From Candidatus Paceibacterota bacterium (GTDB lineage Bacteria > Patescibacteriota > Minisyncoccia > Minisyncoccales > GCA-002788555), in the NCBI GenBank assembly GCA_028716825.1, contig JAQUPA010000005.1, forward strand, positions 1-36,082: a DNA stretch of 36,082 nucleotides. The letters run 5' to 3'. Below, in pieces: positions 11,537 to 31,750 of the stretch (position 1 is its first letter; each line of letters starts with the position of its first letter). The notes beneath the pieces were generated by a model, which saw only the letters and a list, made by a program, of their open reading frames with translations, did no database searches and was not told where the DNA came from. The translations under genes and the position numbers were made by a program.

Positions 11537-11609
11537 GCGCGTGTAGCTCAGTGGTTAGAGCACGTGACTTATAATCACGGGGTCGATGGTTCAAATCCAT
11601 CCACGCGCA
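11537..11609 (+). tRNA. tRNA-Ile (anticodon UAU)
   Basis: A complete cloverleaf of 73 nt. Acceptor GCGCGTG pairs with CACGCGC, the D arm is TAGCTCAGTGGTTAGAGC, and the anticodon stem CGTGA/TCACG encloses loop CTTATAA with anticodon TAT at 11570-11572. The T arm is GATGG-TTCAAAT-CCATC and the discriminator is A. CCA is not encoded (ACC then T follows). Most bacteria read AUA with a CAU anticodon modified to lysidine, so a plain UAU isoleucine tRNA is uncommon. Confidence 0.93.
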
Positions 11610-11670
11610 CCTCGTGTATTTTAAAAAATAAATCCAGAGTAGACTATGCTTATTGATTTGGATTGTAAGA

Positions 11671-11744
11671 GGGCAGTTAGCTCAGTTGGTTAGAGCGCAT
11701 GGTCGACATCCATGAGGTCATAGGTTCGAATCCTATACTGCCCA
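11671..11744 (+). tRNA. tRNA-Val (anticodon GAC)
   Basis: A 74-nt cloverleaf with acceptor GGGCAGT/ACTGCCC, T arm ATAGG-TTCGAAT-CCTAT and discriminator A, without encoded CCA. The anticodon stem CATGG/CCATG encloses loop TCGACAT, so the anticodon is GAC (11705-11707). Position 33 is C instead of the near-universal U. Confidence 0.9.
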
Positions 11745-11779
11745 CCGAAAGGTACAAATTAATTTTATTTAAAGATAGA

Positions 11780-11802
11780 GAGTAAAAGCATTAATTTTAC
11801 TC
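11780..11802 (+). promoter_or_regulatory. Hairpin in the rplS leader
   Basis: GAGTAAAA (11780-11787) pairs perfectly with TTTTACTC (11795-11802) around a 7-nt loop, ending 10 nt before the rplS ATG. It would occlude or set the spacing of the ribosome entry site, since no Shine-Dalgarno is visible. A role in autoregulation is only inference. Confidence 0.35.
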
Positions 11803-11812
11803 CTATAAAATT

Positions 11813-12286
11813 ATGGCAGAAATAAATGTTTTAAAATTAGGAGGGATAAAAGAAAATTTACCCGAAATGAGAGCGGGGGACACTGTTAGAGTTTCGGAAA
11901 AAATTTTAGAGAAGAGCAAGAAAAAATCTCAGGTTTTTGAGGGTATTTTGATTTCAAAAAAACATGGCAAAGGCATAAATGCTACTTTCACCCTAAGAGC
12001 TAATGTTGGTGGAGTAGGTGTTGAGAAAACATATCCTTGGCATTCTCCGTTAATTGAAAAAATACAAGTAATAAAGAAGGGAAAAGCAAGAAGGGCAAAG
12101 CTTTATTATCTAAGAGAAAAAGCAGAGAAGAAGATTAGAAGAAAATTGAAATCAAAAAGAGTTCAAGTAGTAGAAGAAGTCTATAAAGAGAAAACCAAAG
12201 AAGTAGAAAAAAAAGAAGCTAATAAAAAAGAGATTCCCAGGGAAATAAAAAGCAAAGAGGAGAAGGAAAAACCAGAAAAAAAATAG
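11813..12286 (+). CDS. rplS: 50S ribosomal protein L19 with charged C-terminal tail
   Basis: L19 sits at the 30S-50S interface and contacts bridge B8. The 157-aa product has the family core: MRAGDTVRVSEKI, VFEGILISKKHGKGINATFT, GVGVEKTYPWHSPLIEKI, then the terminal RRAKLYYLRE block ending near residue 105. The remaining 45-50 residues are an almost purely Lys/Glu tail (EKTKEVEKKEANKKE and similar), longer than the usual 115-120-aa protein. The tail looks disordered or helical and has no recognisable domain. A tRNA-Leu gene starts 4 nt after the stop and may share the transcript. Confidence 0.95.
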   Translation: MAEINVLKLGGIKENLPEMRAGDTVRVSEKILEKSKKKSQVFEGILISKKHGKGINATFTLRANVGGVGVEKTYPWHSPLIEKIQVIKKGKARRAKLYYLREKAEKKIRRKLKSKRVQVVEEVYKEKTKEVEKKEANKKEIPREIKSKEEKEKPEKK

Positions 12287-12290
12287 AAAA

Positions 12291-12374
12291 GCCCAGGTGG
12301 CGGAATTGGTATACGCGGCAGCTTGAGGAGCTGTGCTCTTTTTGGGCATGCGGGTTCGACTCCCGCCCTGGGCA
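12291..12374 (+). tRNA. tRNA-Leu (anticodon GAG)
   Basis: An 84-nt class II tRNA with acceptor GCCCAGG/CCTGGGC, anticodon loop TTGAGGA with anticodon GAG at 12325-12327, long variable arm, T arm GCGGG-TTCGACT-CCCGC and discriminator A. CCA is not encoded. An apparent longer start for the next gene at 12323 falls inside this tRNA and is not real. Confidence 0.95.
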
Positions 12375-12385
12375 TATTTACTCTT

Positions 12386-12907
12386 ATGATTTTAAAAATC
12401 GGACATCGTGGGGCTTGTGGTTATGAACCAGAAAATACTCTACGTTCTTTTGAAAAAGCCCTCCAACTCGGGGTTGATATGATAGAATTAGACGTGCGTA
12501 TTTGTAAAAGTGGCGACTTGGTTGTTATACATGATGATAAGCTTGAAAGAACTACAAACGGAGAGGGTAGAGTTTCGGAAAAGTGGCTCTATGACTTACG
12601 AAAATTAGATGCCGGCAAAGGCGAGAAAATTCCTCTTCTTGAAGAAGTACTGGATTTAATTTCCGGAAAAGCAAAAGTAAATATTGAGCTTAAAGAGGAA
12701 AACATTGCAAATTATGTATTTGAAATAATCGAAAAATACATAAAAGGCGATAAATGGTCTCAAGATGATTTTTTGATATCTTCTTTTCATCTTCCAGCAC
12801 TACAGGAATTCGATAATTTAAATCCCGATATAAAAACAGGTCTTTTAACCTTTTTTTGCCGAAGAATCTTAAAAAAATTGTCAGAAAAGTTAATATTCAT
12901 TCTGTAA
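12386..12907 (+). CDS. Glycerophosphodiester phosphodiesterase, N-terminal part (frame broken near 12857)
   Basis: GDPD enzymes hydrolyse glycerophosphodiesters to glycerol-3-phosphate and an alcohol. The start is the ATG at 12386 (MILKIGHRGACGYEPENT). Catalytic and metal residues are present: H7-R8, E34 and D36 in MIELDVR, H49 in VVIHDD, and IELKE. The reading frame is intact to about residue 157 (TGLLTFF) and then runs into unrelated residues and a stop at 12905-12907. The true C-terminal part continues in the -1 frame from about 12856. One extra T in the T7 run at 12851-12857 would restore a single protein of about 226 aa. It could be a pseudogene, a sequencing or assembly indel, or a slippage site. 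Confidence 0.8.
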   Translation: MILKIGHRGACGYEPENTLRSFEKALQLGVDMIELDVRICKSGDLVVIHDDKLERTTNGEGRVSEKWLYDLRKLDAGKGEKIPLLEEVLDLISGKAKVNIELKEENIANYVFEIIEKYIKGDKWSQDDFLISSFHLPALQEFDNLNPDIKTGLLTFFCRRILKKLSEKLIFIL

Positions 12908-13065
12908 ATCCTTCAGCTACTTTGATAAATAAAAATTTTATTGGTGATATGAAAAAGAAAAACACGAAAGTATTTGTTTGGACGGTAAACAATCCTGAAG
13001 ATATTCAAAAAATGAAATTGGCAGGAGTAGATGGTATAATATCTGATTATCCAGATAGAATATAA
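12856..13065 (+). pseudogene. Glycerophosphodiester phosphodiesterase, C-terminal part in a shifted frame
   Basis: This frame encodes the missing end of the GDPD barrel: SVNPSATLINKNFI, then KVFVWTVNNPEDIQKM and AGVDGIISDYPDRI, the family's canonical final strands. It has no start codon of its own beyond a TTG at 12856 and no Shine-Dalgarno, so it is best read as the second half of the gene that starts at 12386, displaced by one nucleotide. Conservation up to the last residue suggests the frameshift is very recent or artefactual. Confidence 0.75.
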
Positions 13066-13095
13066 TTTTTTATATTTAAGAATTCAGAAAAGTTT

Positions 13096-13581
13096 ATGAT
13101 TTTTAAAAAACATTCTCTTAAGACAGGCATTAGTTTCGGCTTGACTTCGGCGGTAATTACTACCCTTGGCTTGATGGTGGGATTAAATTCAAGCACTCGT
13201 TCAAAACTTGCTGTTATTGGTGGTATTTTGATCATTGCAATTGCTGATGCTTTTTCAGATGCCCTTGGGATTCACGTTTCAGAGGAATCAGAAAACAAAC
13301 ATACGAAAAGAGAAATTTGGGAGTCAACAATTTGTACTTTTTTAGCAAAATTTTTATTTGCCTTGACATTTATTATCCCAGTATTAACATTTGAATTACA
13401 GAAAGCGGTAATTATAAGTATTTTTTGGGGCCTGTTTTTGATCGCATTAGTTAGTTTTTATATTGCAAAAGATCAAAAAAAGAGACCATTTAAAATCGTT
13501 CTTGAGCATCTTTTAACAACAATAGTGGTGATATTATTTTCACACTATGTCGGTCTTTGGATATCTTCGGTTTTTATGTAA
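13096..13581 (+). CDS. VIT1/CCC1-like integral membrane protein
   Basis: A 161-aa protein with about four to five transmembrane segments. The opening LKTGISFGLTSAVITTLGLMVGL and the following LAVIGGILIIAIADAFSDALGIH match the first two helices of the VIT/CCC1 family, whose members move iron or manganese across membranes. A polar segment (SEESENKHTKREIW) separates the two halves, where full-length members carry a metal-binding cytoplasmic domain. Here it is much shorter than usual (family members about 230 aa). The substrate is therefore uncertain. tRNA-Val starts 2 nt after the stop. Confidence 0.65.
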   Translation: MIFKKHSLKTGISFGLTSAVITTLGLMVGLNSSTRSKLAVIGGILIIAIADAFSDALGIHVSEESENKHTKREIWESTICTFLAKFLFALTFIIPVLTFELQKAVIISIFWGLFLIALVSFYIAKDQKKRPFKIVLEHLLTTIVVILFSHYVGLWISSVFM

Positions 13582-13583
13582 AT

Positions 13584-13657
13584 GGGCGGCTAGCTCAGCT
13601 GGTTAGAGCGTCTGACTTACATTCAGAAGGTCGAGGGTTCGAGTCCTTCGCCGCCCA
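13584..13657 (+). tRNA. tRNA-Val (anticodon UAC)
   Basis: 74 nt with acceptor GGGCGGC/GCCGCCC, anticodon stem TCTGA/TCAGA, loop CTTACAT, anticodon TAC at 13618-13620, T arm GAGGG-TTCGAGT-CCTTC (one G-T pair) and discriminator A. It has normal U33, unlike the GAC isoacceptor at 11671. CCA is not encoded. Confidence 0.95.
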
Positions 13658-13698
13658 AACGTTGTAAAAATTTATAATTTTGATATAAATTGTTTTAT

Positions 13699-13771
13699 GC
13701 TGCAGTAGCCAAGGCGGTCACGGCACATGTCTGAAAAACATGGGATCTCGGTTCGATTCCGAGCTGCAGCA
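13699..13771 (+). tRNA. tRNA-Phe (anticodon GAA)
   Basis: 73 nt with acceptor GCTGCAG/CTGCAGC, anticodon stem CATGT/ACATG, loop CTGAAAA, anticodon GAA at 13733-13735, T arm CTCGG-TTCGATT-CCGAG and discriminator A. CCA is not encoded. Confidence 0.95.
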
Positions 13772-13842
13772 CAAAAAACGAATGGCATAGGACGAATAGC
13801 TTATAATAAAATTGTTATTAGTTTTATGCTATTTGTAAACAA

Positions 13843-13914
13843 GCGGGTGTCGTATAGTGGCTATTACGCTACCTTGCCAAGGTAGTAACGGCGGTTCAAT
13901 TCCGCTCACCCGCT
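13843..13914 (+). tRNA. tRNA-Gly (anticodon GCC)
   Basis: 72 nt with acceptor GCGGGTG/CACCCGC, anticodon stem CTACC/GGTAG, loop TTGCCAA, anticodon GCC at 13876-13878, T arm GGCGG-TTCAATT-CCGCT and discriminator U, usual for tRNA-Gly. CCA is not encoded. Confidence 0.95.
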
Positions 13915-13926
13915 CAATGATTCGCA

Positions 13927-18677: not shown

Positions 18678-18765
18678 GGAAGGGTGGCTGAGTGGTTTAA
18701 AGCAACGGGTTGCTAACCCGTGCCGCTTAAACAGCGGCTCGTGGGTTCAAATCCCACCCCTTCCG
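18678..18765 (+). tRNA. tRNA-Ser (anticodon GCU)
   Basis: An 88-nt class II tRNA with acceptor GGAAGGG/CCCTTCC, anticodon stem ACGGG/CCCGT, anticodon GCT at 18712-18714, long variable arm GCCGCT/AGCGGC, T arm GTGGG-TTCAAAT-CCCAC and discriminator G. CCA is not encoded. It begins 4 nt after the GIY-YIG stop. Confidence 0.95.
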
Positions 18766-18806
18766 CTTTAGTGAGCTTTACGGGACATTTCATTTTTAAG
18801 ATTTTT

Positions 18807-18893
18807 GGAGGGGTGCCAGAGCGGCCGAATGGGATGGTCTTGAAAACCATTGTGGCAGCAATGTCACCGGGGGTTCGAATCCCTCCCCCTCCG
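18807..18893 (+). tRNA. tRNA-Ser (anticodon UGA)
   Basis: An 87-nt class II tRNA with acceptor GGAGGGG/CCCCTCC, anticodon stem ATGGT/ACCAT, loop CTTGAAA with anticodon TGA, T arm GGGGG-TTCGAAT-CCCTC and discriminator G. CCA is not encoded. Its last 12 nt plus the next base are repeated exactly at 18987-18999. Confidence 0.95.
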
Positions 18894-18999
18894 CCATCCT
18901 TCGCTAAAGCTACGGAATGGCTATTTTGTAGATTTGGCGAGGATTTTTGGGAGTAAATTGGTATTCCGAAATCTTGATGAAGGATACCTCCCCCTCCGC
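18882..18999. mobile_element. MITE-like mini-element inserted at the 3' end of tRNA-Ser(UGA)
   Basis: A 90-bp core (18896-18985) is bounded by imperfect 23-bp terminal inverted repeats (18896-18918 and 18963-18985, 16 of 23 matching). Outer boxes ATCCTTC/GAAGGAT and inner boxes CGGAAT/ATTCCG are exact. The core is flanked by 13-bp direct repeats CCTCCCCCTCCGC (18882-18894, the end of the tRNA gene, and 18987-18999), with exactly one base between repeat and core on each side. It contains no ORF. The structure fits insertion with target duplication or site-specific integration that preserved the tRNA. Confidence 0.6.
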
Positions 19000-24230: not shown

Positions 24231-24258
24231 AAAACCCGATGATGGGTTTTTTATTTTT
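24231..24258 (+). terminator. Intrinsic terminator after the EndoQ gene
   Basis: AAAACCC (24231-24237) and GGGTTTT (24244-24250) form a 7-bp stem with a 6-nt loop, followed by a T-rich tract. It ends the clpB-EndoQ unit and lies about 30 nt before the metG ATG. Confidence 0.75.
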
Positions 24259-24269
24259 GGGAAAAATGA

Positions 24270-24275
24270 TAAAAT
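24270..24275 (+). promoter_or_regulatory. Possible -10 box for metG
   Basis: TAAAAT preceded by TGA, 11 nt before the metG ATG. Transcription would start about 5 nt before the ATG, implying a nearly leaderless mRNA. The -35 region overlaps the terminator's T-tract and is weak. Confidence 0.3.
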
Positions 24276-24286
24276 TTAGAATTAAT

Positions 24287-25672
24287 ATGAAAAAGAAATT
24301 CTACATAACAACAAGTATTGCCTATACAAATGCTCCTCCGCACATTGGTTTTGCATTAGAGGCAATTCAGGCAGATGTTTTGGCAAGATATCATCGTTTA
24401 TTAGGAGATAACGTTTTCTTTTTAACAGGCACTGACGAGCACGGCTCTAAAATTGAAAGAGCTGCCAAGGAAGCCGGCAAGACACCCGAGCAATTTACAA
24501 ATGAAATTTCAGAAAAATTTCAAAATCTTAAAGACGCCTTAAATATTTCAAATAATGATTTTATAAGAACAACTGACAGAAAAAGACACTGGCCAACAGT
24601 TGAAAGAGTCTGGAAGCAATTATTAGGGAAAGGAGATATTTATAAAAAAAAGTATAAAGGACTTTATTGTGTAGGATGTGAAGCGTTTGTAAAAGAAAAA
24701 GACTTAGTTGATGGGAAATGTCCGAATCACCAAAAAGAGCCAGAAATAATTGAAGAAGAAAATTATTTCTTTCGTCTTTCAGAATATTCAAAGCAAGTTA
24801 AAGAAGAAATAGAAAAGGGTGATATAAAAATTATTCCAGAAACAAGGGAAAATGAAATCTTAAGCTTCATCGATCAGGGCATTGAAGATATTAGTGTTTC
24901 ACGTTCAAAAGAGAAATTAAAATGGGGTATCCCTGTTCCTGGAGATCCTGACCAGATAATTTATGTTTGGTTTGAAGCATTATTAAATTATCTTTATCCA
25001 AAAGATCGTTGGCCGGCAGATGTTCATTGTGTTGGAAAAGATATTTTTAGATTTCATGCCTTAATGTGGCCGGCAATGTTGATTGCCTTGGATTTACCAA
25101 GACCAAAAAATATACTGGTCCATGGATTTATTAATGTTAATGGACAGAAAATGTCAAAGAGTCTGGGAAATATTGTAGATCCTTTCGAGTTAGTTTCTAA
25201 ATATGGTACTGATGCTGTTCGTTATTTTCTCTTGCGTGAGATTCCATCAACTGAAGATGGTGATTTTACTTACGAGAAGTTTGAAGAAAGATATAATTCT
25301 GATCTTGCGAGGGGCCTTGGGAACTTAGTTGCAAGGGTTTTAAAATTAACAGATGGCGACAATAAACCAAGGATAAAAAATGATGGACTTAAAAGAAAAA
25401 TTGAGGAAATAGAAAAAAATTATAAGAATTCTTTGGAAAATTTCAGATTTAATGATGCTTTGGCAGAAATTTGGGAACTAATCAGTGTTTGCGATAAATA
25501 TATTGAACAAAAAAAACCCTGGGAGACAAAAGACAAAGAGGTTATTTGTGACCTTTTATATGCTATTTCAAAAATTTCAGAATTTTTACAACCATTTTTA
25601 CCAAAAACTTCAGAAAAGATATTGGACCAATTAAAAGAAAAAAGAGGAAAATCTCTTTTTCTGAGAATTTAG
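24287..25672 (+). CDS. metG: Methionyl-tRNA synthetase
   Basis: MetRS charges initiator and elongator tRNA-Met. I chose ATG 24287 (MKKKFYITTSIAYTNAPPHI); the upstream open frame covers a terminator and promoter. The 461-aa protein has a HIGH-type motif reading HIGF (19-22), FFLTGTDEHGSKI, and a single zinc knuckle CVGC...CPNH in which the last ligand appears to be His. It also has YVWFEALLNYL, HALMWPAMLIAL and KMSKS (288-292). The C-terminal tRNA-anticodon domain includes ARGLGNLVARVLKL and PWETK. There is no C-terminal EMAP/dimerisation domain. It is commonly neighboured by tatD in bacteria; here a foreign-looking gene separates them. Confidence 0.97.
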   Translation: MKKKFYITTSIAYTNAPPHIGFALEAIQADVLARYHRLLGDNVFFLTGTDEHGSKIERAAKEAGKTPEQFTNEISEKFQNLKDALNISNNDFIRTTDRKRHWPTVERVWKQLLGKGDIYKKKYKGLYCVGCEAFVKEKDLVDGKCPNHQKEPEIIEEENYFFRLSEYSKQVKEEIEKGDIKIIPETRENEILSFIDQGIEDISVSRSKEKLKWGIPVPGDPDQIIYVWFEALLNYLYPKDRWPADVHCVGKDIFRFHALMWPAMLIALDLPRPKNILVHGFINVNGQKMSKSLGNIVDPFELVSKYGTDAVRYFLLREIPSTEDGDFTYEKFEERYNSDLARGLGNLVARVLKLTDGDNKPRIKNDGLKRKIEEIEKNYKNSLENFRFNDALAEIWELISVCDKYIEQKKPWETKDKEVICDLLYAISKISEFLQPFLPKTSEKILDQLKEKRGKSLFLRI

Positions 25673-25684
25673 TTTTTAAACTAA

Positions 25685-25720
25685 GAAAAGTCATTTATTA
25701 ATATTAGAGTGGCTTTTTTA
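25685..25720 (+). terminator. Probable metG terminator
   Basis: AAAAGTCA and TGGCTTTT pair over 8 bp (one G-T) around a roughly 18-nt AT-rich loop and end in a T-run. It separates metG from the next transcription unit. Confidence 0.5.
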
Positions 25721-25726
25721 ATGATA

Positions 25727-25755
25727 TTGACTAAATGCTATTTTTCAATTATAAA
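25727..25755 (+). promoter_or_regulatory. Promoter for the GH52-like gene
   Basis: TTGACT (25727-25732, 5 of 6), a 17-nt spacer, and TATAAA (25750-25755, 5 of 6). The leader would be about 85 nt. A TTGACA at 25783 lacks a matching -10. A GGAG (25835-25838) sits 8 nt before the ATG at 25847 and decides the start. Confidence 0.65.
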
Positions 25756-25846
25756 ATTAATAGGGAGTTTGAGGATAGCTCTTTGACATATAAATCGGAT
25801 AAGGTTAAGGAAAAAAATAAAACTAAAAAAGATTGGAGTGTTTGAA

Positions 25847-28477
25847 ATGAAAAGAATGTTTGGTTTTTTGTGGAGAGCGAGAGGAAATATACTTTACTTC
25901 GCACTTATAGGCATTTTAATCATTTCTTTGATTGCTGTTTTTGTTCCTAAAGCGCAGGCGAGCGGATGGCTCCACTATGAGAAAGGGCAAACGCGGACAG
26001 GTTTTGTACTTGCTCGTCCCGGTAGCGGATTTGACTGTAATGCACATTTTGACCTTGGCAGGTTCAAATACTACACCAGCTGCATGGGGATAACGAGAGA
26101 TGGACCGCCCACTTCAATAATCTGTGGCACGCGTCTTGATTCTGATGGTTCAATTCAACGTTTTGATCCTTCAGACCAAGAATGGACTCCATACTGGGAT
26201 AATACCCAAATTGAGGTGATGCCTGACAGGCGTCGGCTTTATGGAGCTCATTGTAGGCCAGGAACAAATGACGTTCAGGTCTACACATCAGTGGCGACGA
26301 TTAGCCCGTTTGCTGGTTTTTCTAAGGATATAAATAATCCTAATATGAAAATCAGCCTTGCGCCGTTTTTCTACAAAGAAGTAGCGCTTTACAACAATAC
26401 CGGCGTATATCAAAGCGGAAAAATGTTCTTTAGCATTGATTACGCTACTGGCTATGCTCAAAACGGGAATACAAAGACAATCTACTATCAGGTTCCTAGT
26501 GACAATGGCGGATTGCGGGCGCTTGCGATTCAAGATCCTTCAGCAACCTGGGGATATGGAGATGGCATTTTTGATTACTTTGCTGCGACTAGTTCTTTGC
26601 CAAATTGCCACGTTGGTAGCAGTATTTGGAATGCCGGCGGATTTTCGGTTCCTTTCGGACTTCGTCCAGGAGAGGAAAAGATAATTCGTTTGGTATATGC
26701 CGGGTACAATGGCGGAGACGTAATGCAGGATGTTTCTCGTGGTGGCTGGATGAGGTTCCTTTATGGGAAACTTTTTCCTGCTGGCTCAAACCAGGCGGGC
26801 GTGAATCAGGTGATTGATTATGCTTTTTCAAACAAAGACGAAATCATGGCTAAAACCAACGCCTTTGCTGCAAAATATATGACAGGCAATTCCATGCTGG
26901 ACTTTATAATCTCCATGGCCATCCAGAATTATCTTGCCAATGGGTGGATGGTTTATGACCCTCGTAATGGCAATGTATATTACTATGTTAGCGAGGGAGG
27001 CGACTGCCAATTTTTGAGTACAATAGACGTTGGCCACGATACGGCGGTCTTTGAAGTTCAGGAAGGAATTGAGGCTCTTCGAAAACAGCTCGAAGAGTGG
27101 GAAGCTTATGTGCTTTCCGATCAATACGGCATTTACTTGCAGCATGACATGGGAGTTGAAACTCAGGTTATTCCGGGCCAAGTCTACCCGTTCAATATGG
27201 GAGTGGAGGAGATTCTTAATAGGAACCTTCTTTTGCACTTTTATTGGAAGAAGAGCGGGGATATTGCTTTTATGCAGCAAAAGTTGGCTCGGACATGGGA
27301 ATTCATTTCGTCGCTGAAGGCTCGGTCCGCTGGAAGTGGAATAGTTCACTATAACGCATACAAAACGACATTTGACTATGAAGCAGCGAGCGGAGGAACA
27401 TGTTCTTTGGGGGAGGCCTCAGAGAATACATACATTGCTGTCAAGCAATTTGCCAATTATATTGCTTGTGCGGAGATGTTCCTCGCCGTGGGAGACTCTC
27501 AAAAAGCGGATGTTTGTTACCAAGAGGCAAACAAAATTAAAGAAACCCTAAAGGGAGCCTATCGGCGATTCGGATATTTACCGGTGAGTCTTTCTTATGC
27601 TCTTCCGGACTGGTCGGACCAGAGCGTTGTGATCTTTGATGGATTATTAACGCTGTTCCTCACCGACAGTTACGACCCCAATGGCAATGGAACGGGTGAT
27701 GCCCTTATAAGGGATTTGCTCGTTAATGTTGCTCCGTCCCATTACTATGCTTTGAATGTGTGTAGAAGGGCTTACGGTTATAGTGTTACCTCTTCGGCAG
27801 ACGAGACTTGGCTCTCAAAGTGTTCTTTTAACGCCACTACGATTTCGGGATTTTTTGAAATCTTGGGATTTTATGGTTATGAAGGGCACAATGAAGTATT
27901 ATCAGATGCCGCCTCGCTTTTGCAAAATAGCGAGCTGGGATTTGTTGATTGTTGGAATGTTGATGCTGGAGCAGCGCTTAATCTTACCCTATATCCTCGA
28001 GGAGCTTGTATAGTTGGACTCTCGGAAGGATATTCAAATATGGTCAAGCTTTTGTATCGGCGCTGGCTGGGGCGTGAACCGGATCCTGGTGGATATGATG
28101 CTCACCTGAACGCTTTGCGGACGGGAGCAATGAATCCTACCCAGGTGACAAACAGTGTTCGTTATTCGTATGAATACTGTGATCGATACGTCAGTTATGT
28201 GTTTGTGACCATGTTTGGCTATGATCAGGATGTTCAAGGGCATAACGCTTACGTAAATGCTATGTTGTGTAGAGTTATGTCAGAGACTGATATCTACTGG
28301 GAGTTTTACCGAGCATCGATAATCTGGAAAGTCTATAAAGAACTACTTTATAGGGCTCCTGATGATGATGGTCTTTCTACTTTTACGAACGCCATGAAAG
28401 CTGGAATGACCGAACAGCAGGTTCGGGAATCTATAATGAGTTCGGATGAGTACAAAAGGCTCCATCCTAATGGATAA
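25847..28477 (+). CDS. Secreted GH52-like glycoside hydrolase with C-terminal DUF4214 repeats
   Basis: An 876-aa exported protein. Residues 1-38 form a long signal peptide ending VPKAQA. Residues about 40-260 are a beta-rich region. Residues about 300-700 look like an (alpha/alpha)6 barrel with the pattern of GH52 beta-xylosidases: SEGGD followed by FLSTIDV (around E383) and TTFDYEAASGGTCSLGEASE (D510) followed by NTYIAVKQFANYIACAEMFL. E383 and D510 are my candidates for catalytic residues. Residues about 725-873 hold three DUF4214-like units (LLYRRWLGREPDPGGYDAHL, FVTMFGYDQDVQGHNAYV, LLYRAPDDDGLSTFTNAM), often linked to surface matrices. GC is visibly higher than in both neighbours, and the gene has its own promoter, Shine-Dalgarno and terminator, all suggesting recent transfer. 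A related barrel family such as GH116 is the main alternative. Confidence 0.65.
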   Translation: MKRMFGFLWRARGNILYFALIGILIISLIAVFVPKAQASGWLHYEKGQTRTGFVLARPGSGFDCNAHFDLGRFKYYTSCMGITRDGPPTSIICGTRLDSDGSIQRFDPSDQEWTPYWDNTQIEVMPDRRRLYGAHCRPGTNDVQVYTSVATISPFAGFSKDINNPNMKISLAPFFYKEVALYNNTGVYQSGKMFFSIDYATGYAQNGNTKTIYYQVPSDNGGLRALAIQDPSATWGYGDGIFDYFAATSSLPNCHVGSSIWNAGGFSVPFGLRPGEEKIIRLVYAGYNGGDVMQDVSRGGWMRFLYGKLFPAGSNQAGVNQVIDYAFSNKDEIMAKTNAFAAKYMTGNSMLDFIISMAIQNYLANGWMVYDPRNGNVYYYVSEGGDCQFLSTIDVGHDTAVFEVQEGIEALRKQLEEWEAYVLSDQYGIYLQHDMGVETQVIPGQVYPFNMGVEEILNRNLLLHFYWKKSGDIAFMQQKLARTWEFISSLKARSAGSGIVHYNAYKTTFDYEAASGGTCSLGEASENTYIAVKQFANYIACAEMFLAVGDSQKADVCYQEANKIKETLKGAYRRFGYLPVSLSYALPDWSDQSVVIFDGLLTLFLTDSYDPNGNGTGDALIRDLLVNVAPSHYYALNVCRRAYGYSVTSSADETWLSKCSFNATTISGFFEILGFYGYEGHNEVLSDAASLLQNSELGFVDCWNVDAGAALNLTLYPRGACIVGLSEGYSNMVKLLYRRWLGREPDPGGYDAHLNALRTGAMNPTQVTNSVRYSYEYCDRYVSYVFVTMFGYDQDVQGHNAYVNAMLCRVMSETDIYWEFYRASIIWKVYKELLYRAPDDDGLSTFTNAMKAGMTEQQVRESIMSSDEYKRLHPNG

Positions 28478-28511
28478 TAGTTCTCAAAATCGTTCTTTAT
28501 GAGTATCGATC

Positions 28512-28549
28512 AGCCGTCTCGTCTTGTATACGAGCGGCTTTTATTTTAT
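28512..28549 (+). terminator. Strong intrinsic terminator after the GH52-like gene
   Basis: AGCCG-T-CTCGT (28512-28522), a 7-nt loop, then ACGAG-CGGCT (28530-28539): ten base pairs with one bulge, running into TTTTATTTTATTT. It is much more GC-rich than other terminators in the window, like the gene it follows. Confidence 0.85.
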
Positions 28550-28575
28550 TTAAAATTTTGATAGATTTATTACAT

Positions 28576-29412
28576 ATGTTAATAGATACACACGCACATC
28601 TTAATTTTGTTTCTTACGATGAAGATAGGGACGGAGTGATAAAAAAATCATTAGAGAACGATATCTGGATGATTAATGTTGGCACAAACTATCTAACTTC
28701 AAAAAAAGCGGTTGAGATAGCAAATAAAAATGAAGAAGGTGTTTTTGCTTCCGTAGGTCTTCATCCAATAAATTTAGAAACAGGATTGATTAAGATATAT
28801 CGTGATAAAAACGAAATAAATGACGATTTTTCTTTTGAAAAAGAATTTGATTATCAAAAATACGGAGAGCTAATTTTAAAAAGTCAGAAAAAAGTAGTTG
28901 CTGTTGGAGAAATTGGTTTTGATTACTGGTCAAAACCAAAGACAAAGAAAAAAATGAATGAGTTTAGAGAACAGCAAATAAAACTTTTCAGGAAGGAGGT
29001 TAGTCTTGCAAGGGAATTTGAGTTACCCTTGATTTTGCATTGTCGTCTCGGATATGAAGATTTAATTGAAGAACTTTCAAGAATAAAACATAAATTCGGC
29101 GGAGTTTTGCATTGTTTTTGCGGAAACTGGAAAGAAGCTGAAGCATTTCTTGAAATGGGTTATTATATTGGTTTTAATGGTATAATTTTTAAATTAAAAC
29201 TTGACGATATTATTAAAAAAACGCCATTGGAAAGAATGTTAGTTGAAACTGATTGTCCCTTTTTGACCCCACCAAAAATTAAAAAGGAAAGGAATGAGCC
29301 AGTTAATATAAAATATATCGTAGAAAAGATTGCAAAAGTTAAAAATGTCAAAAATGCAGAGATAGAAAGGATTACAACCGAAAATGCAAATAAATTATTT
29401 AATCTTTTGTAA
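28576..29412 (+). CDS. tatD: TatD-family metal-dependent DNase
   Basis: TatD proteins are TIM-barrel metal-dependent hydrolases with 3'-5' exonuclease activity on DNA. I chose ATG 28576 (MLIDTHAHLNF); an earlier in-frame TTG adds only six unmatched residues. The 278-aa product has HAH near the N-terminus, VGLHP, VGEIGFDYW, LILHCR, HCFCGNWKEAEAFLEMGYYIG and VETDCPFLTPP, all standard metal-site motifs. It normally neighbours metG; in this genome it lies beyond the GH52-like gene. Confidence 0.95.
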   Translation: MLIDTHAHLNFVSYDEDRDGVIKKSLENDIWMINVGTNYLTSKKAVEIANKNEEGVFASVGLHPINLETGLIKIYRDKNEINDDFSFEKEFDYQKYGELILKSQKKVVAVGEIGFDYWSKPKTKKKMNEFREQQIKLFRKEVSLAREFELPLILHCRLGYEDLIEELSRIKHKFGGVLHCFCGNWKEAEAFLEMGYYIGFNGIIFKLKLDDIIKKTPLERMLVETDCPFLTPPKIKKERNEPVNIKYIVEKIAKVKNVKNAEIERITTENANKLFNLL

Positions 29413-31246: not shown

Positions 31247-31750
31247 ATGGATCCACAAAGTATTCTGAAAGGGAAAATAGCAGAGGATTTAATGAGGGAA
31301 TTACTTGAGAAAAACCAAGTGCATGTTTATTTAACTAGCCAGAAATCTCTTTTACAGGAGCTGGAGCAGACAGAGGCTTCTTTCAAGTGGGAGAGTAAAA
31401 CTGGTAAAAAACTATCTTCGATACCCGATTTTTTAGTATTTACTAAAAAGGCAAAAGCATTTTTTGTTGAAGTTAAGTTTAGAAGCGATCCAGAATCGCT
31501 TGAGGAAGTTTTGTTAATTGAAAAAGAATATCTTGAGAAGTATTGGGAAGCAAAAATAGTAATCGTAACTTCTAAAGAAAAACCTTATTTTAGAATAGTC
31601 TCGCCTCCTTATTTTTCAAAAGAAAAAAAGGAAGGATGGCCAATACCAGTTTTAAATTGGCTTCCTTTAGAAGACGATCCAGATCTTGGAATAGATCCAA
31701 AGACAATAAAAGAGTTTAATAAGTTAGTTAAGCAATACTACGAAAAATAA
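31247..31750 (+). CDS. Small PD-(D/E)XK nuclease-fold protein, hypothetical
   Basis: A 167-aa protein with a visible PD-(D/E)XK active-site pattern: E13 in ILKGKIAEDLMRELL, P60-D61 in SSIPDFLVF and E75-V-K77 in AFFVEVKFR. Spacing fits the restriction-endonuclease-like fold of Holliday resolvases and Type II/IV enzymes. There is no DNA-binding or helicase domain, signal peptide or membrane segment. The C-terminal part (PPYFSKEKKEGWPIPVLNWL) is unfamiliar. It ends 1 nt before the stop of the convergent Nif3-like gene, with no visible terminator between them. A methylase, a helicase or a toxin-antitoxin partner is not adjacent, so whether it acts in repair, defence or RNA processing cannot be told. 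Confidence 0.7.
   Translation: MDPQSILKGKIAEDLMRELLEKNQVHVYLTSQKSLLQELEQTEASFKWESKTGKKLSSIPDFLVFTKKAKAFFVEVKFRSDPESLEEVLLIEKEYLEKYWEAKIVIVTSKEKPYFRIVSPPYFSKEKKEGWPIPVLNWLPLEDDPDLGIDPKTIKEFNKLVKQYYEK

Follow-up and report, generated by a model that had tools for sequence, protein, structure and literature searches.

Among described enzymes, the closest counterparts of the protein considered here are the GH52 enzymes, which are beta-xylosidases of about 700 residues. To our knowledge, no known GH52 enzyme carries a signal peptide or a DUF4214 tail. In the GH52 enzyme 4c1o the catalytic nucleophile is E357 (PMC6887791). A second point of reference is GH116, the GBA2-type family of clan GH-O, of which TxGH116 uses D452 and R792 as sugar ligands, with R792 binding the 4-OH and Arg786 holding the 6-OH of the sugar (PMC10167657). 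In this clan, nucleophile and acid/base are expected to lie about 8 A apart (PMC10167657). The third is DUF4214, which in segmented filamentous bacteria has been described as a likely anchor to the cell surface (PMC12780176).

The stretch analysed here (the window, 36,082 nucleotides) is one contig of a Candidatus Paceibacterota genome of 647,599 bases in 34 contigs, with a completeness of 98%. Its small size, its gene content and its relatives are in keeping with Patescibacteria. Between metG and tatD it holds a single plus-strand ORF (Table 1), which with fair probability represents an imported single-gene unit for an exported, surface-held GH52-like beta-glycosidase, likely pentoside-cleaving and with E383 as its nucleophile. 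A horizontally acquired transcription unit of one gene would have entered between metG and tatD; a Sec signal would take the glycosidase, of clan GH-O type, out of the cell, where three C-terminal DUF4214-type repeats would probably hold it at the surface while the two-domain core would cleave beta-linked sugars, most likely pentosides such as xylose, off outside glycans via E383. If true, an exported, DUF4214-tailed GH52 relative in a 0.65 Mb genome shows how reduced bacteria can gain an enzyme acting outside the cell by import of a single gene, and clan GH-O acquires a far-removed member that allows a direct test of where the acid/base residue sits.

Table 1 Features of the gene, its product and its flanks (positions in the window), with examples of GC-rich genes of the host genome (G000, by contig and position)
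Feature	Position	Strand	Evidence or remark
metG, upstream flank	24239-25672	+	TIGR00398
metG intrinsic terminator, upstream boundary	25684-25719	+	RNA fold -10.6 kcal/mol, z -3.2
Sigma-70-type promoter, TTGACT - 17 nt - TATAAA	25727-25755	+	predicted from sequence; 10 of 12 consensus bases
boxA-like CTCTTTGACA in leader	25778-25787	+	weak, uncertain
Weak Shine-Dalgarno GGAG	25835-25838	+	sequence; 8 nt before ATG
Whole gene	25847-28477	+	876 aa, GC 44.7%
Signal peptide, residues 1-38	25847-25960	+	predicted from sequence; likely cut between AQA and SG
GH52-like core	26336-28006	+	residues 164-720 by HMM; phmmer 3e-10; HMM 90.7 bits
E383, catalytic nucleophile by alignment (= E357 of 4c1o)	26993-26995	+	invariant in 28-row and 60-row alignments
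D510 and E512, only nearby acidic acid/base candidates	27374-27382	+	T[YF]D motif at 508; alignments
G517, aligned with GH52 acid/base Asp517	27395-27397	+	MAFFT and GH52 HMM
R718 of YPRG, motif-aligned with R792 of TxGH116	27998-28000	+	invariant
DUF4214 repeat 1	28040-28180	+	27.4 bits, above cut-off
Degenerate DUF4214 repeat 2	28181-28324	+	aligns with repeats 1 and 3 and with those of G118; Pfam silent
DUF4214 repeat 3	28331-28462	+	27.9 bits, above cut-off
Intrinsic terminator of the gene, GC-rich	28512-28539	+	RNA fold -14 kcal/mol, z -2.5; T-rich tail after it
tatD, downstream flank	28558-29412	+	PF01026, TIGR00010
GC-rich gene examples	G000:C1:60919, C2:3410, C2:4255, C3:40628, C4:3756, C4:5192, C7:9677, C15:14026; window 25847-28477

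In base composition the gene stands clearly apart from the 27 other genes of the window, both in GC (0.447 vs. a mean of 0.332, sd 0.024; z 4.7) and in GC3 (0.425 vs. 0.244, sd 0.022; z 8.2), and its codon use also differs, with a CAI-like score of 0.514 vs. 0.678 (sd 0.031; z -5.3) when the codon use of the window serves as reference. Abrupt GC steps around positions 25900 and 28500 mark the edges of the GC-rich stretch. The gene is a GC3 outlier genome-wide as well (the 414 genes with 200 aa or more have a mean of 0.245, sd 0.066), ranking only about 16th by GC3 and thus not unique. While the codons of the signal peptide are nearer to the host composition (GC3 0.34), GC3 is alike in the sandwich, barrel and DUF4214 parts (0.41-0.44), so that the gene body looks as if it was imported as one piece. 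These differences in composition and codon use had been proposed in an earlier note on this DNA, along with a promoter, a Shine-Dalgarno sequence and a GC-rich terminator belonging to the gene itself; promoter and terminator were recovered, and the Shine-Dalgarno sequence is present but only weak. The promoter was missed by a consensus scanner because the scanner demands a T at the last position. An in-frame GTG nine bases 5' of the ATG is a possible alternative start, and the leader between promoter and Shine-Dalgarno is AT-rich. Its boxA-like element occurs five times in the genome, both strands counted; as a common mark of GC-rich genes such an element was set aside as weak (4 of 25 leaders vs. 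5 of 187 others). By its predicted signals the gene is a monocistronic unit.

A second line of evidence comes from the metG-tatD junction. In 22 of 29 relatives both genes lie on the same contig at most 2.4 kb apart (21 on a cautious count, the metG match in one relative, G015, being weak), and none of the 22 carries the gene between them. In most of these genomes metG and tatD touch or are less than 200 nt apart. In about nine relatives the gap measures 0.5-2.4 kb, and the long ORFs found there differ from our gene; by eye they include a glutamate 5-kinase-like (G005), a tgt-like (G011) and an adenylyltransferase-like ORF (G001). From this proximity and these other gap genes, it follows that metG-tatD is the ancestral order and that insertions are tolerated at the junction. 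That the two genes are normally neighbours and were separated by an insertion had been anticipated correctly, and neither a composition equal to that of the neighbours nor presence of the gene at this place in all relatives was found. The word cassette used for it earlier can be kept as a descriptive term only, as no shared junction sequence was found and some relatives hold other, ordinary genes there. Neither terminal repeats nor an integrase were seen at the locus, and there is no tRNA gene at the junction.

The gene was also missing from all 99 other genomes in the sample of relatives, from 383 genomes of the class (profile search) and from 379 genomes of the phylum, samples that overlap in part. 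The sole weak match in the phylum (genome G118, E 3e-4) proved to be a different, unrelated protein of 270 aa. No close relative that could identify a donor was found in GTDB contigs (motif scan), IMG/VR, phages or plasmids, nor by scanning viral and genome contigs for exact peptides or by alignment-based viral scans. Foreign composition, absence from relatives and a conserved junction together make horizontal acquisition a well-supported conclusion from the sequence. An old resident gene that all sampled relatives have lost, its odd composition having other causes, is very improbable: small genomes readily lose genes, but loss would be required throughout the sampled order, class and phylum, and the composition is foreign. 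Just as improbable is an assembly chimera or bin contamination. The assembly does consist of 34 contigs with an estimated contamination of 1.8%, but the gene sits well within one contig of 36 kb and is flanked by metG and tatD of the same phylum, two false joins would be needed, both exactly in intergenic stretches, and other GC-rich genes are placed likewise elsewhere in the genome. An enzyme of this kind had been called unexpected for a reduced genome, which overstates the case given that Patescibacteria encode numerous glycoside hydrolases (2024 review, PMC11665869); still, sampling of the order, class and phylum turned up no GH52 relative.

The earlier assignment of a GH52-like two-domain fold is borne out at the level of sequence. 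A phmmer search against the PDB returned three GH52 beta-xylosidase sequences (E 3e-10 to 3e-8), and an HMM built from sampled GH52s, with the query protein left out, matched the core with E 5e-30, shuffled decoys scoring below 0 bits. No GH52 model was reported by Pfam or NCBIfam, and Pfam gave DUF4214 only. A GH52-motif scan of GTDB contigs yielded 304 GH52-type loci, mainly from Bacillota, Verrucomicrobiota, Lentisphaerota and Fibrobacterota; since the scan requires GH52 motifs, more divergent kin would be missed. The best 80 of the 304, which were kept for comparison, are all distant, with 21-30% identity in the best segments and about 19-25% when alignments are taken as a whole. A tree that includes 75 sampled GH52s, drawn without a GH116 outgroup and rooted at the midpoint for display, puts the protein outside all of them on a saturated branch of about 10, a length that makes its placement uncertain.

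The predicted structure agrees with this picture. AlphaFold returned a beta-sandwich and an alpha-barrel (mean pLDDT 58-68; pTM 0.64 at full length and 0.78 when only residues 40-742 are modelled), the layout being a sandwich, which may start near residue 78, followed by an (alpha/alpha)6 barrel. Foldseek placed GH52 first (E 2e-28, TM 0.76 to 4c1o), GH116 second (E 5e-18, TM 0.63) and the exo-arabinanase ExoMA2 third. As the input alignments for AlphaFold were GH52s, this agreement is partly circular, and independent evidence comes from the sequence tests. In the model the protein shares its fold with the GH52 beta-xylosidases 4c1o, 4rhh and 8qme from Geobacillus and Parageobacillus, and it has the same nucleophile Glu and many invariant core residues in common with them, but it is only about 20-25% identical overall. 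The protein is most likely GH52-like, of clan GH-O type. GH52 membership is not claimed because the column of the acid/base Asp holds a Gly and the corresponding loop is poorly modelled.

Both ends of the protein set it apart from the sampled GH52s. The N-terminus, MKRMFGFLWRARGNILYFALIGILIISLIAVFVPKAQA followed by SG, has the form of a classical signal, and the secretion signal proposed earlier is upheld by its maximum 15-residue hydropathy of 3.17, compared to no more than 1.65 in the N-terminal region of the sampled GH52s, none of which has an equivalent hydrophobic stretch. The AlphaFold model forms a helix at residues 15-32. The protein would therefore seem to be exported. At the other end, 161 residues follow the YPRG motif, compared to a median of 15 and a maximum of 36 in the sampled GH52s. 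PF13946 (DUF4214) matched here with a total of 49.6 bits, the Pfam cut-off being 23.2. Three DUF4214-like repeats had been counted in the earlier note; two of these were recognized by Pfam, while the middle one is a degenerate copy, identified by alignment only, that retains the D..G core. No other DUF4214 was found in the genome. Another Patescibacterium (G118, 2 Mb, same phylum) has 19 DUF4214 matches, and several of its large exported-looking proteins (700-1190 aa) end in four copies, at C48:2500-12500 (three in a row) and at C40:128000-132500. Our protein resembles these and the surface proteins of segmented filamentous bacteria in having a C-terminal repeat run on an exported protein; it differs from them in having three repeats, one of them degenerate, instead of four and in the fused GH52-like core. 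By analogy with the G118 tails and with DUF4214 anchoring in segmented filamentous bacteria, the tail probably attaches the protein to the cell surface.

Within the active site, the proposal of E383 as nucleophile is supported by its alignment with E357 of 4c1o. D394, D398, H433, D434, E454, N458, E512, K658 and R718 are likewise invariant in the alignments with sampled GH52s. D394, 11 residues after E383, corresponds by spacing to D452 of TxGH116. The acid/base residue is a different matter. D510, suggested earlier for this role, belongs to the only T-[YF]-D motif of the protein (T508-F509-D510), which is like TYD517 of GH52 and TYD593 of TxGH116, but MAFFT and the query-free GH52 HMM both put G517 in the Asp column, and D510 can be equated with the GH52 Asp only if, compared with GH52, seven residues are deleted before it and five inserted behind it. 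At E512 the sampled GH52s have an invariant Glu. In the first AlphaFold model the acid/base loop is unreliable (pLDDT below 50). D510 is thus a motif-based candidate only.

These features could also suggest a surface-displayed pseudoenzyme, in which the GH52-like core binds glycans that it no longer cleaves and mediates adhesion to a partner cell. The Asp to Gly change, a one-residue insertion beside the nucleophile relative to GH52 (alignment and HMM), the very long branch and the use of DUF4214 modules as parts of surface proteins elsewhere all fit this possibility, but it is rather unlikely, as E383 and nine or more further polar residues of the core are invariant and D510 and E512 stand nearby as acid/base candidates.

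With respect to the substrate, the preferred reading of a pentoside-cleaving enzyme can be weighed against an active non-pentosidase, i.e. a GH116-like beta-glucosidase or an exo-enzyme of the D-arabinan type. After GH52, the folds most similar to the model are GH116 and ExoMA2, and the TFD motif resembles that of TxGH116. Sequence similarity to GH116 is nevertheless undetectable: no GH116 chain in the PDB matched at E <=10, and Pfam DUF608 has no match in the genome. Arg786 of TxGH116 is without a counterpart, the position being N712 in our protein and Gly in GH52, and the lack of this 6-OH-binding residue suits a pentoside substrate. A non-pentosidase is therefore distinctly unlikely. DUF608 matches elsewhere in the phylum were weak and partial, and probably belong to other barrel enzymes. 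As no xylulokinase-type FGGY kinase was found in the genome, released xylose would be without a standard route, and its use by the host along that route is doubtful. Alternatively, the enzyme could serve in loosening a polysaccharide of a partner cell or of the environment.

The gene is one of a larger group in its genome. The 34 contigs together hold 18 genes with 150 aa or more, a few of which may be spurious ORFs, that have a GC3 of at least 0.40 (mean about 0.245), among them purB, purH, a purC-purE fusion, purL, ThiF and ThrRS-like genes. Of these, 15 are isolated compared to 81 of 466 other genes, and nine have a strong Shine-Dalgarno sequence compared to five of the 466. Our gene shares isolation, promoter and terminator with this set, but not the strong Shine-Dalgarno. 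Since the latter occurs in half of the GC-rich genes and in about 1% of the others, the host genome is well suited to a study of how genes retain their own expression signals after import. Of 59 relatives only 7 have purH, with identities of 33-46%. No common insertion or recombination site was found in the flanks of the GC-rich genes, which share only short, mostly promoter-like matches of 12-18 nt; the exceptions are adjacent genes, whose flanks overlap, and a duplicated leader on contig C7. This lack of a common insertion sequence looks like repeated import rather than a cassette system, possibly through natural competence, which is known in the phylum Patescibacteria (PMC11665869). A bolder and tentative version of the preferred reading, which we regard as possible but doubtful, would make the protein the founder of a separate family of clan GH-O, exported and held at the surface by DUF4214 repeats, whose acid/base has moved to D510 or E512; the protein would trim partner-cell glycans for an epibiotic Patescibacterium and would have arrived with a wave of solitary GC-rich genes.

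Some further observations concern the GC-rich genes and the window. Two tandem GC-rich ThrRS-like genes (G000:C4:3756-6625), the first with a class II core and an anticodon domain by Pfam, are identical over their last ~130 residues and differ in the rest, as if by recent gene conversion. On contig C7 (G000:C7:23660-25353), two neighbouring GC-rich genes differ while their leaders, consisting of promoter and hairpin, are near-duplicates (88-91% identical). Parts of one purL overlap with slight differences at two contig ends (G000:C15:2-1984 and C3:42401-44692), which would reflect either variation between strains or a repeat where the contigs break. In the window, a small protein with weak similarity to TnsA-like/VRR-NUC endonucleases (31247-31750) adjoins a NIF3-like gene, and eight tRNA genes lie in small groups among protein genes (11537-13915 and 18678-18896). 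The last of these, a tRNA-Ser (18807-18896), overlaps the start of an HtrA-like ORF listed from a TTG at 18850, and this start is therefore probably wrong.
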